Shown in pieces: positions 25,024-32,696 of a DNA stretch of 36,308 nt. The position numbers and the translations under genes are program-made. The notes below the pieces were generated by a model that saw nothing but the letters and a program-made list of their open reading frames with translations, made no database searches and had not been told where the DNA came from. Source of the stretch: Mucilaginibacter sp. (GTDB taxonomy: Bacteria > Bacteroidota > Bacteroidia > Sphingobacteriales > Sphingobacteriaceae); contig JAQBOS010000323.1 in the NCBI GenBank assembly GCA_028287925.1, positions 1 through 36,308 on the forward strand, in the 5' to 3' direction. Numbering within the stretch: position 1 is the stretch's first letter; each line of letters begins with the position of its first letter.

Positions 25024-26064
25024 ATGTTACGTTTTGCACATATAGATTTTTTATGGGGATTGTTATTGATCCCGGTTTTTATCCTGCTTTTTATTGTGGT
25101 AAGCAGGTGGAAAAGTAAGGCTGTAAAATCATTGGGCGACAGGAGTGTGGTAAATCTCATGATCCCTGATGTGTCATTTTCAAGGCCGTGGCTAAAGTTT
25201 ATTTTGTTTACCGTTGCGTTTGCTTTTTTGCTGATAGGCGCGGCCGATCCGCAGATAGGCTCAAAGATGGAAGAAGAAAAACGTAAAGGGGCCGATTTGA
25301 TGATCTTGCTTGATGTATCAAACAGTATGCTCTCGCAGGATCTGGTGCCTAACCGCCTTGAAAATGCCAAGCGGGCCATAGCCCAGCTTATTGATAACCT
25401 GCATACCGACCGTATTGGTATAATTGTGTTTGCAGGCGAGGCTTATGTACAGCTGCCAATGACTACTGATTACTCGGCAGCCAAATTGTTTTTAAATACC
25501 ATAAATACCAATATGGTACCTACGCAGGGTACGGCTATTGGTTCGGCCATTGACCTTGGAATGAAGTCTTTCGATTTTAAAGACGGAACAGGCAAGGCCA
25601 TGATAATTATTACCGATGGCGAAAACCATGAAGATGACGCTGTTGCTGCTGCAAAAAATGCTACTGATAAGGATGTTACCGTGCACGTTATTGGCGTAGG
25701 CTCACCTGAAGGTGCCCCAATCCCTATTTACCAGGGTAACAAACAAATAGGCTTCCATTTGGATAGTGCCGGTAAAACCGTTGTAAGCAAACTGAACGAG
25801 ACTATGGGTAAAGAAATTGCTGCGGCAGGTAACGGGGCTTACGTAAGGGCAACAAATGCTAACAGCGGCTTGGGAATAGTGATGGATCAGATTGAAAAGA
25901 TCCAGCGGAAAACTATTGACAGCAAGAATTTCAAGGATTTTGAAGACAGGTTCCAGTTTTTTATCGGGCTTGCATTTTTATTATTACTGATCGAGTTCTT
26001 TATCTCTAATAGAAAAAGCCAGCGGCTGAGTAATTTGAAATTATTTGAAGTAAAAAAATCATGA
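25024..26064 (+). CDS. batB: BatB, von Willebrand-A membrane protein
   Basis: This 346-aa paralogue of BatA has the same plan. It has N-terminal membrane helices (FLWGLLLIPVFILLFIVV and FILFTVAFAFLLIGAAD), a VWA domain with LLDVSNSMLSQDLVPNRL (DxSxS metal site), GTAIGSAIDLGM and IIITDGENHEDDA, and a C-terminal membrane helix (FFIGLAFLLLLIEFFI). It starts 3 bp after batA and its stop overlaps batC (ATGA), so the three are surely cotranscribed. Confidence 0.93.
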   Translation: MLRFAHIDFLWGLLLIPVFILLFIVVSRWKSKAVKSLGDRSVVNLMIPDVSFSRPWLKFILFTVAFAFLLIGAADPQIGSKMEEEKRKGADLMILLDVSNSMLSQDLVPNRLENAKRAIAQLIDNLHTDRIGIIVFAGEAYVQLPMTTDYSAAKLFLNTINTNMVPTQGTAIGSAIDLGMKSFDFKDGTGKAMIIITDGENHEDDAVAAAKNATDKDVTVHVIGVGSPEGAPIPIYQGNKQIGFHLDSAGKTVVSKLNETMGKEIAAAGNGAYVRATNANSGLGIVMDQIEKIQRKTIDSKNFKDFEDRFQFFIGLAFLLLLIEFFISNRKSQRLSNLKLFEVKKS

Positions 26065-26837
26065 AGCAGCTAATTATCATCCTATTATTTTTACTGCAGG
26101 GTTCGTGGCTTTTTGCGCAGCAGGAGAAAAGCCTGGTACATAAGGGTAATGAGCTTTATCAGCAAAAAAAGTATACAGAAGCTGAAGCTAATTATCGCAA
26201 ATCAGTGGAGAAGAATAAGAACGTGGAAGGTGATTTTAACCTCGGCGATGCACTTTTTAAACAAAAAAAGTTTACCGAAGCAGGCGAACAGTTTAACCAG
26301 CTTGCCGGGGCATCATCAAACAAAAACATTGCTGCCAAGGCTTATCATAATTTAGGCAATTCACTGCTGGAAAATAAAAAGCTGGAAGAAAGCATTGATG
26401 CGTATAAAAAATCATTGATCAATAACCCTAAAGACGATGAAACCCGTTATAACCTTGCCTATGCACAGGAAAAATTGAAAGAACAGCAGAAAAAGGATAA
26501 GGATAATAAGAAGAACGACAAGAACAAGGATAAAAAAAATCAGAACAAAGACGATAAGAATAAGGATAACAAGGATCAAAATAAAAAAGATCAGGACAAA
26601 AAAGACCAGGATAAGAAGGATCAGGATAAAAAGGATCAGGATAAAAAGGATCAGGACAAAAAGGATCAGGACAAAAAAGATCAGAAAGATGGCCAGCAGC
26701 CTCAACCCAACAAATTATCAAAAGAAGATGCCGAACGGATGCTTGACGCGCTCAATAACGATGAAAAGCAAACTCAGGAAAAACTGAAAAATAAAAAATT
26801 AAAAGGTGTGAAAATGCACATTGAAAAGGATTGGTAG
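26061..26837 (+). CDS. batC: BatC, TPR protein with lysine/aspartate-rich repeat tail
   Basis: This 258-aa protein has a signal peptide (ends SWLFAQQ). TPR motifs follow (about 27-140: HKGNELYQQKKYTEAEANYRKS, DALFKQKKFTEAGEQFNQL, AYHNLGNSLLENKKLEESI). Then comes an extremely charged segment (about 140-212) built from KDQDK pentapeptides. The end (LSKEDAERMLDALNNDEKQTQEKL) is the conserved BatC C-terminus that often precedes a membrane-interacting motif in this family. The repeats are encoded by a 15-bp tandem array. It overlaps batB by 4 nt. Confidence 0.9.
   Translation: MKQLIIILLFLLQGSWLFAQQEKSLVHKGNELYQQKKYTEAEANYRKSVEKNKNVEGDFNLGDALFKQKKFTEAGEQFNQLAGASSNKNIAAKAYHNLGNSLLENKKLEESIDAYKKSLINNPKDDETRYNLAYAQEKLKEQQKKDKDNKKNDKNKDKKNQNKDDKNKDNKDQNKKDQDKKDQDKKDQDKKDQDKKDQDKKDQDKKDQKDGQQPQPNKLSKEDAERMLDALNNDEKQTQEKLKNKKLKGVKMHIEKDW
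26583..26687 (+). repeat. 15-bp in-frame tandem repeat in batC
   Basis: Seven consecutive copies (the last interrupted) of AAAAAGGATCAGGAT-like units encode (KKDQD)n. The copies differ mainly at third positions (A/G and T/C). The array keeps the frame, so copy changes would lengthen or shorten the charged linker without breaking the protein. Confidence 0.85.
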
Positions 26838-26840
26838 GGG

Positions 26841-26880
26841 GGAAGTCCGAAAGTCGGAAAAGTCCGGAAGTCCGAAAGAA
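26841..26880. repeat. AAGTCCGAAAGTCCG degenerate direct repeat
   Basis: Four tandem imperfect copies of GAAAGTCCGAA/GGAAAAGTCCGG lie in the batC-batD spacer, directly after the batC stop. The element has the same degenerate, purine-rich style as the other short intergenic repeats in this window. Confidence 0.65.
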
Positions 26881-26916
26881 AAATTAACATTACAACCTTT
26901 CAACAGGTTAATAACA

Positions 26917-28731
26917 ATGAAAATAAAGTACTACATATTAACCTTATTGCTATTCTGGGGGGGCATACTTAAGGCTCAGGATGTAAAATTTACTTCAGTA
27001 GTAAGTAAAACTACCGTGGGAACAGGTGAGAAGTTCCAGGTTGATTTTACAGTGAACGGGAACAGCAGTGATTTTAATCCGCCGGGGTTTAGCAGTTTCC
27101 AGGTATTTTCAGGGCCCAATGTATCAACAAGTATGGAATCTATTAACGGCGTTACCGCCGTTAGCAATTCTTACAGCTATATTTTAATGGCGGCTAAGCA
27201 AGGTGACTTTACTATTGGGCCGGCTACTATAATAGTAAACGGAAAGAAGTTAAGCACTAATGCAATAAGGATGAAGGTGGTTAAAGGGCAGCCGGTTCAG
27301 CAGAACAGCGGCCAGGGAAACGGTGCAGATAACGGCATAATTGAAGGTAATACTGCCGACCTGGCAAAATCCTTGTTTATAAAAGCGGTTGTTGATAAGG
27401 CCAACGTTTACCTGGGTGAGCAGCTAACGGTAAGCTTCAGGATCTATACCAGGGTAGGGATCGAGGATAGCCGACTTGATAAAGTGCCCGACCTGACCGG
27501 TTTTTTTAACCAGGACATTAAAAGCCCGCAACAGCAACAACAAGTGCAATGGCGTGTTGAAACTTATAAAGGCTTAAAGTATAATACTGCCGATCTGAAA
27601 CAAACTATACTATTCCCCGAACATGCGGGTGATCTTACCATTGAACCTATGGAAATGACATTGCTGGTACGACAGCCCGTCCAGTCGAGGGATGTTATGG
27701 ATCAGTTTTTTGGCGGCTCATTTAAAGAGGTTAAATATAAAGTCAAAAGCGCTCCGGTAGTGATTCATGCAAAGCCGCTACCTGAAACGGGAAAGCCGGA
27801 TGGCTTTGCCGGTGCTGTTGGCACATTTAATATTGAAGCATCGGTTGATAAAACAGAGCTTAAAGCAAACGAGGCTTTGAATTATAGAGTTAAAGTTACC
27901 GGGGCAGGCAATATTAAGCTGCTGAAAACGGTGAATACCAGCTTCCCTGCTGACTTTGAAAAATACGACCCTAAGATTAGTGACACCGTAACAGAACGCG
28001 CAAGCGGAGTATCTGGCAGCAGGATCTACACCTACCTGCTGATCCCAAGGCATCAGGGAGATTTTACGATTGACCCGATCAGGTTCTCTTATTTTAACCC
28101 GGCAACGGGCAGGTATGTAACCTTAACTTCCAAATCATTTAAAATTAAGGTGAACAAGGGGGTGGCTGAAAGCAATGTAACCGCTTTAGCCGGAGCCGAC
28201 AAACAGGATATTAAAACACTGGGTAAGGATATCAGGTATATTAAAACAAGCGATACCACTTTAAACAAGCCGGGGGACGGTTTTTTTGGATCGGCAGGGT
28301 ATTATTTACTATTGGTAATCGGCCCGGTTTTATGTATAGGCGCCTATAACTACCGCAACCGGATGCTAAAGCTTAACAGCGATATTGTATTGGTGAAAAA
28401 TAAAAGGGCGCGTAAGCTTGCAGCTAAGCACATGGCGAATGCACAAAAGCAACTGCAGGCAAATAATACGGCAGCATTTTATGAAGATGTGTTTAAAGGC
28501 ATGTATGGATACCTAAGCGATAAGCTTAATATTCCTTATGCTAATTTAGACAGGGAAACCATAGCATCATCATTAAAGGCAAAAGCACTGAATGAACAAC
28601 TGGTTAACAGGGTGTTGGAAACACTGGATCTGTGTGAGATGGCGCGTTACGCACCGGTAACCCACATCTCTAAACAGGAAGTATTTGAAAAGGCTAAGGG
28701 CATTATAAGCGATATTGAAAATGAGATTTAG
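26917..28731 (+). CDS. batD: BatD, oxygen-tolerance membrane protein
   Basis: I start at ATG 26917 (MKIKYYILTLLLFWGG, 604 aa); the TTG start of the track reads through the repeat and gives no signal peptide. The protein has a signal peptide (ends LKAQD). Tandem beta domains of the BatD type follow (SKTTVGTGEKFQVDFTVNG, DKANVYLGEQLTVSFRIYT, DKTELKANEALNYRVKVTG), then one membrane helix (about 490-508, YYLLLVIGPVLCIGAYNY). The cytoplasmic tail is helical (RKLAAKHMANAQKQLQ). It matches the batD family in length and gene order. Confidence 0.9.
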   Translation: MKIKYYILTLLLFWGGILKAQDVKFTSVVSKTTVGTGEKFQVDFTVNGNSSDFNPPGFSSFQVFSGPNVSTSMESINGVTAVSNSYSYILMAAKQGDFTIGPATIIVNGKKLSTNAIRMKVVKGQPVQQNSGQGNGADNGIIEGNTADLAKSLFIKAVVDKANVYLGEQLTVSFRIYTRVGIEDSRLDKVPDLTGFFNQDIKSPQQQQQVQWRVETYKGLKYNTADLKQTILFPEHAGDLTIEPMEMTLLVRQPVQSRDVMDQFFGGSFKEVKYKVKSAPVVIHAKPLPETGKPDGFAGAVGTFNIEASVDKTELKANEALNYRVKVTGAGNIKLLKTVNTSFPADFEKYDPKISDTVTERASGVSGSRIYTYLLIPRHQGDFTIDPIRFSYFNPATGRYVTLTSKSFKIKVNKGVAESNVTALAGADKQDIKTLGKDIRYIKTSDTTLNKPGDGFFGSAGYYLLLVIGPVLCIGAYNYRNRMLKLNSDIVLVKNKRARKLAAKHMANAQKQLQANNTAAFYEDVFKGMYGYLSDKLNIPYANLDRETIASSLKAKALNEQLVNRVLETLDLCEMARYAPVTHISKQEVFEKAKGIISDIENEI

Positions 28732-28732
28732 C

Positions 28733-29494
28733 ATGTTAAAAAAGGCATTACATATTTTTATAGCATTTGTTATTCCCTCAATATGCTTTGGGGACGATAA
28801 TGTGCAGGCGCTTTTTGCAAGCGGCAATGCCAGCTATAATAAAGGGCAGTATAAAGAAGCGCTTACTGCTTATCAGAAGGTTTTTGATTCGGGCTATGAA
28901 TCAGCAGCCTTGTATTTTAACATGGGGAACGCCAGCTATAAAACAGATGATCTGCCTTCGGCCTTGCTGTATTATGGTAAAGCACACAAGCTTTCGCCGG
29001 GTGATGAGGATATTAACTTTAACATCCGCTTTGTAAATCAAAAGACTACTGATAAAATAGATGAGGCTCCTGAATTTTTCGTTGCCAAATGGTGGAGGGG
29101 TTTTATTTTAGCCTTATCTGCAAATGTTTTAGGCTGGCTTAGCGTTTTGTTGGTCTTACTGGCATCGGGGATTTTAATCCTTTACTTTTTTACAGGTTCT
29201 GTTGCCATAAAAAAGACCTCTTTCTACGGCGCAGTTATTTTATTTGTGCTGGGCGCGTTTACTGTTTTTACTGCCTGGATGCAGGTAAACTACTTTAACG
29301 GGCATAAGGAAGCAATAATTTTCAGCCCGTCAGTTACGGTTAAAAGCGGGCCTGTGGAAAAGGCCGGAGCTTTATTTGTGATTCATGACGGCACAAAAGT
29401 GAATGTTTTGGATGATAGTAACGGCTGGTTAAAGATAAAACTTGCCAATGGGAGTGAGGGCTGGATAAAGGCCGGGGATGCGAAGGAAATATAG
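28733..29494 (+). CDS. batE: BatE, TPR and SH3-like membrane protein
   Basis: I choose ATG 28733 (MLKKALHIF..., 253 aa), one base after the batD stop; an ATG at 28721 is also possible. The protein has a signal peptide (ends SICFGDD). TPR motifs follow (ALFASGNASYNKGQYKEALTAYQ, ALYFNMGNASYKTDDLPSALLYYGKA), then two membrane helices (FILALSANVLGWLSVLLVLLA and FYGAVILFVLGAFTVFTAW). The C-terminal SH3-like domain has VTVKSGPVEKAGALFVIHDGTKVNVL and GWLKIKLANGSEGWI. It is the last gene of the Bat operon, followed by a repeat and a bidirectional terminator. Confidence 0.92.
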   Translation: MLKKALHIFIAFVIPSICFGDDNVQALFASGNASYNKGQYKEALTAYQKVFDSGYESAALYFNMGNASYKTDDLPSALLYYGKAHKLSPGDEDINFNIRFVNQKTTDKIDEAPEFFVAKWWRGFILALSANVLGWLSVLLVLLASGILILYFFTGSVAIKKTSFYGAVILFVLGAFTVFTAWMQVNYFNGHKEAIIFSPSVTVKSGPVEKAGALFVIHDGTKVNVLDDSNGWLKIKLANGSEGWIKAGDAKEI

Positions 29495-29585: not shown

Positions 29586-29618
29586 AAAAAAACCTTAGCT
29601 AAAAGTTAAGGGTTTTTT
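29586..29618. terminator. Bidirectional terminator between convergent batE and DyP genes
   Basis: AAAAAAACCTTA pairs with TAAGGGTTTTTT around a short loop. The A and T tracts at both ends let it work for the plus-strand Bat operon and the minus-strand DyP operon. Confidence 0.8.
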
Positions 29619-29639: not shown

Positions 29640-31175
29640 TTAAGGAACTGGCGTTAAAGTACCGGCTGCAATAGCTTTTAAAGCAGTTATACTTGGTATA
29701 AACACGTACAGGCTGCCATCGGTACGGATAAAACGTGTCATATTAGGCACGTCTACTTTCTCGCCTGTTTCTGTTATGTATTCCAGGTACTTGTGCATCG
29801 GGTCGCCATCCTGGGCATGATTGCCAAAAAGCGGATCAATACCGCTCCGGTTATTGGTAGCATCTGGGAAACGGAACTTGCCTTTTGAGATCCAGTTTTT
29901 CATTATAAACTGAAACTGGTTAAACAAATGGCAGCCTATGAATAAGCCTATTAATCCCCTTTGGATCCCTTCCGGCTCGCCCTCTATGTATTTAGGCCCA
30001 TACGGCGATGCCCGGCGCATTACCCTGTTTATGCCGGCATAGTTTACATTCCCGGTTACATTATAATCATCACGGGGGTTGGCCCTGCGGATGTGTGCCG
30101 CATAAGGGCACACCTGGCCAAGGGTATCGTTAGGCTTTGGCCCTTTTTGGTGGGTGGTATGGGTGATGTAATTAAAGTTGGTGTAATCAAATCCCTTAAG
30201 ACTGTCAACAGGTCCTGTTGGTGATACTACCAGCGGAGTACCATCAGCCCATCGCCCGCACATTTTAGCAGCAACCAGGTCAGGATCTTTAGCCTGGCCT
30301 ATAAAGCTTTTAAAAGCTTTTACATCCTGGTATAAAAACCTGAATGCTGCAAAGCTGCCGTTATACAACAACTTGTGCGCGCTATAGGGGCTTTGCGGAT
30401 TATAGGCAAAATGGTACGATGGCACTACGGGCCGGTCATCGGCAGAAAGCCGTCCGTCCCTCATGTTTAGTAATTTATTGTTCCATGGAACATCGCCAAC
30501 CCGGGGCTGCGACAAACTGTCTTTATAATCAAAGTGAATATAATCTATCTTGTCTCCTTCATCAATAGGGTCAGAATCTTTAACGAAAGCCGGCACTAAC
30601 GCTGGTTTGCCGTTAATAACAGGGATCATTTCCATCAATTTATTATAATAAACTTCGCGGTCATTTTCTACCTGGGTAAAAAGCGTTACCTGCAGGTGCA
30701 GATCATTGCCGTTTGGATCGGGTGGCTTGGGTAACAGCCAGTCGTTTTTACCCCTCGTCCACCATTTAGCGGGCGCGCTATCATCTGTGTCGCCAATATC
30801 AACGCAGTTATTGCTATCTGTAGCACCTTTCTTAAATACACTAAATAACTCACGGCTGTTATCGGCAACTGTTTTGCAATTAGCAGCGCCTATCATTTGC
30901 ACAAGCCCGGCATACGTAAAACCAATATTAAGGCAATAAGGCGGCTTATAACCGGGTTTCCATGGCTTGGCAGTGGTAACATTAAGCAGGGCATTGCTCC
31001 CGGGCGCCAAGTTTTTGCAGAACAACTGTGCACCTGCCACATCCTGAATGTTCAGAACAATATATTTGATATGATTAAAGTTGTAACCCCTCAATAACAG
31101 GCCCTGGATATCATCCAGCGTAGGGTTTGGCAAAACTACAGGTTCTTCTGCTTCGGTTTGATCTGTTTTTTTCAT
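29640..31175 (-). CDS. DyP-type heme peroxidase
   Basis: This 511-aa protein has no signal peptide. It starts with the two-domain ferredoxin-like layout of DyP enzymes (LDDIQGLLLRGYNFNHIKYIVLNIQD; LNIGFTYAGLVQMIG). The family motifs are IHFDYKDSLSQPRV, which aligns with the HFGFRDGISQP-type GxxDG region and keeps the Asp but replaces both Gly, and QVCPYAAHIRRANPRDD, the segment that usually carries the proximal heme His and a conserved Arg. LIGLFIGCHLFNQFQFIMKNW is the typical C-terminal helix. It should use peroxide to oxidise an unknown substrate. It follows a small unrecognised gene by 6 bp in the same operon. Confidence 0.88.
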   Translation of the reverse strand: MKKTDQTEAEEPVVLPNPTLDDIQGLLLRGYNFNHIKYIVLNIQDVAGAQLFCKNLAPGSNALLNVTTAKPWKPGYKPPYCLNIGFTYAGLVQMIGAANCKTVADNSRELFSVFKKGATDSNNCVDIGDTDDSAPAKWWTRGKNDWLLPKPPDPNGNDLHLQVTLFTQVENDREVYYNKLMEMIPVINGKPALVPAFVKDSDPIDEGDKIDYIHFDYKDSLSQPRVGDVPWNNKLLNMRDGRLSADDRPVVPSYHFAYNPQSPYSAHKLLYNGSFAAFRFLYQDVKAFKSFIGQAKDPDLVAAKMCGRWADGTPLVVSPTGPVDSLKGFDYTNFNYITHTTHQKGPKPNDTLGQVCPYAAHIRRANPRDDYNVTGNVNYAGINRVMRRASPYGPKYIEGEPEGIQRGLIGLFIGCHLFNQFQFIMKNWISKGKFRFPDATNNRSGIDPLFGNHAQDGDPMHKYLEYITETGEKVDVPNMTRFIRTDGSLYVFIPSITALKAIAAGTLTPVP

Positions 31176-31181
31176 AATAAA

Positions 31182-31883
31182 TTAGCTGCAATCCGGTTTG
31201 CTTGATGGTGGGTATTCAACATCGATTTCAGGCGGGAAAGGCCATAATTCAACCCCGGGTACACCGTTCACTGAATAATTGGTCAGGATATTGCTTACAC
31301 TCAGGCCCGGGAAGGTAGCGCCAAACAGCGGGTTTGTAAGTTTAGCCAGTGGAGTATACGCCTTGCCGGCAGCAGTAGGATCGGCAAAGTTATAATTCAT
31401 TAATAAGCAATTAAAAGCATCGGGGTTTGATTTTACCCCCAGGTGGCCCTTAATAAAATTTGCAGAATTAGGTCCATTGGCATCTATCCCGGGAATGTTG
31501 CTCTCGTCCATCACACTAACAATAAGATTAAGGCCGTCTTCAATAGCTTTCTGCTGTACAAAAGAGCCAATGTAATCGGTAAATTCTCCATCGTAAATAG
31601 CTTGCACTACTAACAGGTCCTTATCGGGCATAGCCTGAAACGTTGTAACAGGAAGCTTTGACTTAGAGCCGCCCTCAACAGCATAAAACATAAAAAAATG
31701 GACCCCCGTTTGAGCACGCATATCCGGACCTGCATCATTGGCAGCTGTTTTAACAGCATGATGAAGTAAGTGAGCGCCTTCAAGCGCTTGTTTGAACTTC
31801 TTTTTTTTAATAGGTAAAAACAGGAACAGCATGTGCTGCTGGTCAGGGGTGCCCACATAAGTGATGGCATTTAGATTCGACAT
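31182..31883 (-). CDS. Unrecognised DyP-linked protein, possibly a dimeric alpha/beta-barrel protein
   Basis: This 233-aa protein has no signal peptide and no membrane segment. I do not recognise a named family. Residues about 70-125 (GVHFFMFYAVEGG, LLVVQAIYDGEFTDYIGSFVQQKA, LNLIVSVM) look like the strand-helix pattern of ferredoxin-like/dimeric alpha-beta barrels, which is also the fold of DyP half-domains. The C-terminal third is Pro/Gly/Asn-rich and lacks clear motifs. It is the first gene of a two-gene operon with the DyP peroxidase, 6 bp apart, so a partner, substrate carrier or encapsulated cargo role is possible but unproven. Confidence 0.7.
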   Translation of the reverse strand: MSNLNAITYVGTPDQQHMLFLFLPIKKKKFKQALEGAHLLHHAVKTAANDAGPDMRAQTGVHFFMFYAVEGGSKSKLPVTTFQAMPDKDLLVVQAIYDGEFTDYIGSFVQQKAIEDGLNLIVSVMDESNIPGIDANGPNSANFIKGHLGVKSNPDAFNCLLMNYNFADPTAAGKAYTPLAKLTNPLFGATFPGLSVSNILTNYSVNGVPGVELWPFPPEIDVEYPPSSKPDCS

Positions 31884-32369: not shown

Positions 32370-32696
32370 ATGGACGAGCTAAACTTTATCAATAATTCAA
32401 ACGATGCAAACAATTCACAGATCGTAATTTTTCAGCAAAATGTATCTGATACAGATGAGCTTGAAGCCCCTGTAAGCCTGCACCTGGTATCAGTAAAAAC
32501 AGGATCAAGTGCCAGCGTACCGGTTGCCGCTGCCGGTAAATTTCATGTGGCAATTATTACCCCGGAAATAACCGTTGTTGACGGGATTATGAGAATAGAG
32601 GAAATTTCAACCCCTGCTGTTTTAATGAAAGCCGGCCAGACTGCTTCTATTAGCGGGGACAGTGATTCAGGATATGAGATAAGTGTGGAAGGGTAG
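32370..32696 (+). CDS. Unrecognised 108-aa beta-rich protein
   Basis: This small acidic protein starts MDELNFINNSNDANNSQIVI with no signal peptide. The rest alternates hydrophobic strands and Gly/Ser turns (PVSLHLVSVKTGSSASVPV, KFHVAIITPEITVVDG, AVLMKAGQTASISGD, YEISVEG), suggesting a small beta-sandwich or barrel. The start NNSNDANNSxIVIFQ recalls small secreted or cytosolic proteins of unknown function, but I cannot name a family. Codon use looks like that of neighbouring genes. It stands alone, with repeats on both sides. It is probably a real gene because the strand pattern is regular over its full length. Confidence 0.65.
   Translation: MDELNFINNSNDANNSQIVIFQQNVSDTDELEAPVSLHLVSVKTGSSASVPVAAAGKFHVAIITPEITVVDGIMRIEEISTPAVLMKAGQTASISGDSDSGYEISVEG

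Follow-up and report, generated by a model that had tools for sequence, protein, structure and literature searches.

In the window (the whole stretch of DNA analysed here, 36,308 nucleotides, which is an entire contig of a Mucilaginibacter-like genome from a soil-type member of the Bacteroidota), a class V DyP-type peroxidase gene is preceded by a small gene whose product, judged from its sequence, belongs to an unnamed DyP-associated family found alongside class V DyPs across the bacteria. This partner is the real finding; a change in the distal motif of the peroxidase is minor. Computation demonstrates linkage to DyP, shared inheritance, remote homology to a wider family and natural fusions, and the two window proteins are probably a dedicated partner subunit and a class V DyP that work as one enzyme. 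The original prediction had proposed a pairing of the two proteins, perhaps as a heteromeric or substrate-channelling peroxidase, with a diverged DyP half-domain as a variant of that idea, and had stressed the altered motif; the pairing is strongly supported, the half-domain variant lacks support from sequence, and the emphasis on the motif is misplaced.

The two-gene locus and its peroxidase

The two genes (ORFs of 511 and 233 aa) lie on the same strand with a spacing of 6 bp in the ORF list, and the original prediction was right about their coordinates and gap. The locus contains:

31182..31883, minus strand: partner gene (233 aa), first of the two-gene unit, with the DyP gene always next downstream
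29640..31175, minus strand: gene for a class V (D-type) DyP-type peroxidase (511 aa)
29589..29618, no strand assigned: A/T-flanked hairpin between convergent genes, a possible bidirectional terminator (z -1.6, weak)

The partner and DyP genes form a two-gene unit, since on one side they are bounded by a convergent neighbour ending at 29494 and on the other by a small divergent gene that begins at 32370. No shared promoter was identifiable for the pair, the promoter scan of the locus being no better than shuffles. By eye, no signal peptide is apparent at either N-terminus (MKKTDQTEAEEPVV... and MSNLNAITYVGTP...), in agreement with the absence claimed earlier. Nearby, a Bat-type (VWA/TPR) cluster (25024-29494) includes a gene (26061-26837, plus strand) for a TPR protein whose long tail is made of DKKDQ repeats.

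The product of 29640-31175 (minus strand) is a divergent member of the class V (D-type) DyPs. It is of full two-domain length, with two ferredoxin-like domains in one chain, and is closest to D-type/class V structures. Searched alone against Pfam it gave no match, and in the NCBIfam search it matched TIGR01413 under the curated cut-off (E=2e-13); the class V DyPs in the PDB were found at E=6e-22 with the single sequence and at E=4e-82 with the family profile, and Foldseek matched its fold to 7anv (E=4e-28). With the class V structures (PDB 7anv, 8re2/8re3 DrDyP, 2d3q and 4w7j AauDyP) the window DyP shares the fold, the Asp/Arg/His set and the two-domain length, but it differs from them in sequence (~20-24% identity), in having DxxDS rather than GxxDG, in its partner gene and in lacking a signal peptide. 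The residues expected to matter for catalysis are:

30504..30536, minus strand: distal motif HFDYKDSLSQP (residues 214-224, from the alignment), with catalytic Asp219, the first Gly replaced by Asp and the second by Ser
30093..30095, minus strand: predicted proximal heme ligand His361 (CPYAAHIRRANPRDD), invariant in alignment A3
30012..30017, minus strand: predicted distal Arg pair Arg387/Arg388 (RRASPYGP), invariant in A3

The distal Asp219 and Arg387/388 and the proximal His361 are thus all kept, and invariant in A3, and with these residues the window DyP would be a normal H2O2-driven heme enzyme.

The motif does read as first noticed, with the Asp kept and both Gly lost, and the strict GxxDG signature, which is usual and not strictly required, is absent from the window DyP (DYKDS). 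In the alignment, nearly all partner-paired relatives have GxxDS, and DxxDS occurs only in the window and in its very close relatives L008 (Mucilaginibacter sp. OK098, with a pair near-identical to that of the window) and L009. The canonical GxxDG is found in the Acidobacteriaceae relative L033, and Ser at the fifth motif position recurs in the unrelated class V DyPs L093 and L102. Variants at both Gly have been published. According to the accessible text of PMC8230527, Dictyostelium DyPA, which is cytosolic, as the window DyP is predicted to be, and likewise has Asp at the first Gly (DFIDG), is an active peroxidase in which this Asp strengthens the dimer interface; it differs in being a subfamily B/class P homodimer that keeps the second Gly, and that text mentions no partner. 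DrDyP has Met190 at the fifth position, and a Met-to-Gly change left its low activity unaltered (PMC10820274). In AauDyP a Leu at this position blocks the heme channel (PMC4357238), and so the Ser of the window DyP may narrow the channel. The altered motif alone is therefore unremarkable, a minor lineage variant with published precedents, and the stress first laid on it was misplaced, given that Asp, Arg and His are kept. A loss of activity through the motif change was rejected on the conservation of the catalytic residues and the published variants at both Gly.

Linkage of the partner family to DyP genes

Among 84,980 species genomes scanned, close homologues of the partner gene lie directly before a DyP gene at 29 of 29 loci (at one of these, L036, the DyP is broken into fragments), and nowhere among them is the small gene unlinked to DyP. 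All seven genomes of the genus that carry the small gene have a window-type DyP directly downstream of it. The hosts are Mucilaginibacter, Pedobacter, Flavobacterium, an Acidobacteriaceae MAG and an Eremiobacterota MAG, and the distribution is patchy, with two further genomes among ~395 Bacteroidota sampled; no homologue of the close family was found on plasmids or phages. Partner and DyP distances are correlated (r=0.83, with 0 of 2000 permutations as high), and the two trees broadly agree, sharing 14 of 25 splits.

The surroundings of the pair vary. At several Mucilaginibacter loci (L012, L014-L017, L020, L026 and L030, some of them partial) the pair sits within a longer operon encoding a CHU_C/cadherin-like T9SS surface protein, PorP/SprF, the partner, DyP, a ferritin-like protein (PF12902, ~700 aa), an MNIO (PF05114) and a DUF2063 protein, which resembles a RiPP-type cluster for oxidative modification with the DyP pair inside it. 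The MNIO/ferritin-like operon was considered as a part of the system and set aside as not general, since neither the surroundings of the window pair nor Flavobacterium have it. Elsewhere in the window's own genome (L077, G000:C199, 4625-10299), genes for ferritin-like, Cys-rich (197 aa), MNIO, DUF2063-like and tyrosinase-like proteins form a cluster reminiscent of a RiPP-type modification locus. In Flavobacterium (L018-L035), about ten loci have a papain-like C1 peptidase with a likely signal peptide directly 5' of the pair.

Other DyP types in the genus occur without the close partner, and through them the wider partner family came to light. The other class V DyPs are 28-32% identical and have an upstream gene of their own with the signature IHFARW...LLFFSNFDGSWxxYLxDF...AYPxLTVxxI. 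When the close partner family was aligned by hhalign with 20 proteins whose genes precede other DyP genes, the match had a probability of 96% (E 4e-9, 131 columns; 96.6% in a repeat run) and still reached 93% without two bridging sequences, as against at most 1.4% for 60 column shuffles and 0.1% for the reversed alignment. Conversely, when the window's own genome is searched with a profile of the distant family that has no window-family member inside, the window gene is selected (E=4.3e-4); in 100 genomes all matches of the profile adjoin a DyP gene, bar a single gene truncated at the end of a contig. Starting from DyP alone, a partner lies directly upstream in 39 of 49 class V-like loci, part of which were also used for building the partner profile, with some having two in tandem; the ten without a partner appear to be mostly other DyP sub-groups. 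With the 29 of 29 linkage and the natural fusions described below, this linkage of the distant family in both directions strongly supports the pairing first suggested.

The wider family spans Bacteroidota, Acidobacteriota, Cyanobacteria, Proteobacteria, Actinobacteria and Deinococcota, of which plasmid records contribute the Cyanobacteria, Alpha- and Gammaproteobacteria, Actinobacteria and Deinococcus; the Betaproteobacterial locus L105 has no recognisable partner. Two partner-family genes in tandem precede DyPs of 510-550 aa in L109-L114 and L098, and at other loci there are two-domain partner forms whose domains are separated by a hydrophobic stretch that presumably spans the membrane. The window partner lies directly upstream of a class V DyP and shows profile similarity to this family over the whole domain, including its His/Asp/Tyr/Phe set. 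A partner subunit for DyP is not mentioned in the accessible parts of the family review PMC8197335 or of the other open-access papers searched; the Leptospirillum och operon (PMC9080137) looked relevant and proved unrelated.

In Proteobacteria, Actinobacteria and Deinococcus (L102, L104, L106, L107, L125, L126, L130 and L131), the pairs are often beside a catalase-family gene and sometimes beside a patatin/thioesterase gene. From the catalase-family, P450, patatin and acyl-CoA neighbours that the pairs have in other phyla, the substrates may be oxidised lipid-like molecules.

Residues and predicted fold of the partner

Three features of the partner protein recur in the discussion that follows:

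31515..31841, minus strand: predicted ferredoxin-like core, residues 15-123, beta-alpha-beta-beta-alpha (AlphaFold2, Foldseek, alignment)
31407..31409, minus strand: Cys159, conserved in >90% of the close family (alignment)
31188..31190, minus strand: C-terminal Cys232, conserved in >90% of the close family (alignment)

Within the core, His62, Asp98, Tyr104 and Phe108 are invariant, and the distant family (A4) conserves this His/Asp/Tyr/Phe set as well. Both cysteines are missing from the L033 partner; being conserved together and lost together, in a single loss event, they are compatible with a disulfide or a paired function.

Searches of the partner protein against Pfam, NCBIfam, PHROGs, PADLOC and PDB sequences gave nothing meaningful, and one member of the family has a weak Pfam ABM match. 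The AlphaFold2 model built from 29 sequences is of moderate quality (mean pLDDT 76), with a confident core and a weak C-terminal third. With this model, Foldseek found dimeric alpha+beta barrels of the ABM/Dabb type (best E ~3e-3, probability 0.9-1.0, TM ~0.5-0.6 by target length), including SnoaB, methylmuconolactone isomerase and a hydroxynitrile lyase. Both the modelled core and these matches lend support to the ferredoxin-like region that had been suspected in the 233-aa protein. The predicted ferredoxin-like core would be the feature held in common with ABM/Dabb-type barrels (IsdG-, HemQ- and Cld-like; PMC4835899), from which the partner differs in having no significant sequence similarity, a longer C-terminal region and two conserved cysteines.

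DyP domains belong to the same broad alpha+beta-barrel superfamily as IsdG, HemQ and Cld (PMC4835899), and the predicted fold of the partner is thus not unrelated to that of DyP. Such a shared ferredoxin-like class might suggest that the partner is a duplicated and diverged DyP half-domain, as had been proposed. We regard this as highly improbable, because the partner has no profile similarity to either DyP domain (hhalign probability 0.2-0.4%), no DyP is among its top 50 fold matches and the window DyP already has both domains.

The fold matches also bear on a second reading, in which the partner would itself catalyse a step of the DyP pathway, ahead of or following that of DyP, as a separate enzyme such as a cofactor-free oxygenase or isomerase of the ABM type. 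The nearest folds and the weak ABM match agree with it, and the conserved His and Asp could be catalytic. However, genes of one pathway rarely keep the first and adjacent position so uniformly over six phyla, and in 100 genomes the family occurs only beside DyP. The natural fusions are neutral here, being compatible with a subunit and with a separate enzyme alike, and overall we consider a separate enzyme quite unlikely.

Natural fusions and the proposed enzyme

Fusions occur in two Rhizobiaceae, with the partner N-terminal to DyP. A 974-aa protein of Rhizobium sophoriradicis has the partner at 301-464 and DyP at 476-971, and a 1423-aa protein of Pararhizobium qamdonense combines a P450, two partner-type domains and DyP. 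These fusions are the strongest hint of a physical partnership, and as the partner accompanies DyP in at least six phyla and is sometimes fused to it, the pair probably works as one enzyme.

It could also be argued that the partner is required solely for assembling the holo-DyP, as a chaperone or heme-loading maturation factor, and stands outside the working enzyme. Its gene is always first and translated just ahead of DyP, its fold class includes the heme-handling IsdG and HemQ (PMC4835899), and its His62 is invariant. On the other hand, covalent fusions retain the partner in the final enzyme, and a structural subunit agrees better both with these and with the two-domain forms that contain a hydrophobic stretch; moreover, some class V DyPs, such as AauDyP, are active from E. 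coli without a partner (PMC4357238). A pure maturation role thus seems unlikely.

The order of genes in D. radiodurans is of particular relevance: a partner gene (243 aa; product WP_051618841), a gap of 1 bp, a DyP gene (457 aa, motif GYKDM) and then a catalase-family gene. From the match of motif and organism with PMC10820274, this DyP appears to be the published DrDyP, which was crystallised and studied alone and is inactive at physiological pH. Its heme is low-spin and it is inactive at pH 7.5, and the authors speculate that interacting proteins might govern its activity (PMC10820274). DrDyP resembles the window DyP in being of class V, in the replacement of the second motif Gly and in its apparent upstream partner-family gene; it differs in that the residue there is Met190, that restoring the Gly made no difference and that it was studied as a lone protein (PMC10820274).

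On balance, we think it fairly probable that the window encodes a cytosolic class V DyP-type heme peroxidase with a dedicated single-domain ferredoxin-like partner subunit. Since the fusions bring both domains into one chain, partner and DyP would bind each other to give a heteromeric enzyme, in which the DyP half would perform an H2O2-driven oxidation. The partner might perhaps dock near the heme-access side as a subunit that presents substrate and controls access or activity, and in its membrane-anchored two-domain forms it may also tether the enzyme. In the motif, the Ser in fifth place, with the Asp in first place in the window lineage, may tune the distal loop and heme channel, and activity would not be abolished. 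Counting against a need for the partner, no partner can be recognised for about one fifth of the sampled class V-like DyPs, and fungal DyPs of class V are known to function by themselves; the chemistry as such thus does not require the partner. A more general proposal, that bacterial class V DyPs are generally two-component enzymes in which a ferredoxin-like subunit switches the heme active or feeds it substrate, is offered only tentatively, as possible rather than probable.

For several bacterial class V DyPs, the protein was purified by itself and assessed with dye assays. If class V DyPs normally act with a partner subunit, such earlier measurements of the lone enzymes are incomplete. A two-component enzyme, if true, would explain the inactivity of lone DrDyP at physiological pH and, as DrDyP has a solved structure and a low-spin heme, the partner idea is directly testable there through one neighbouring gene.
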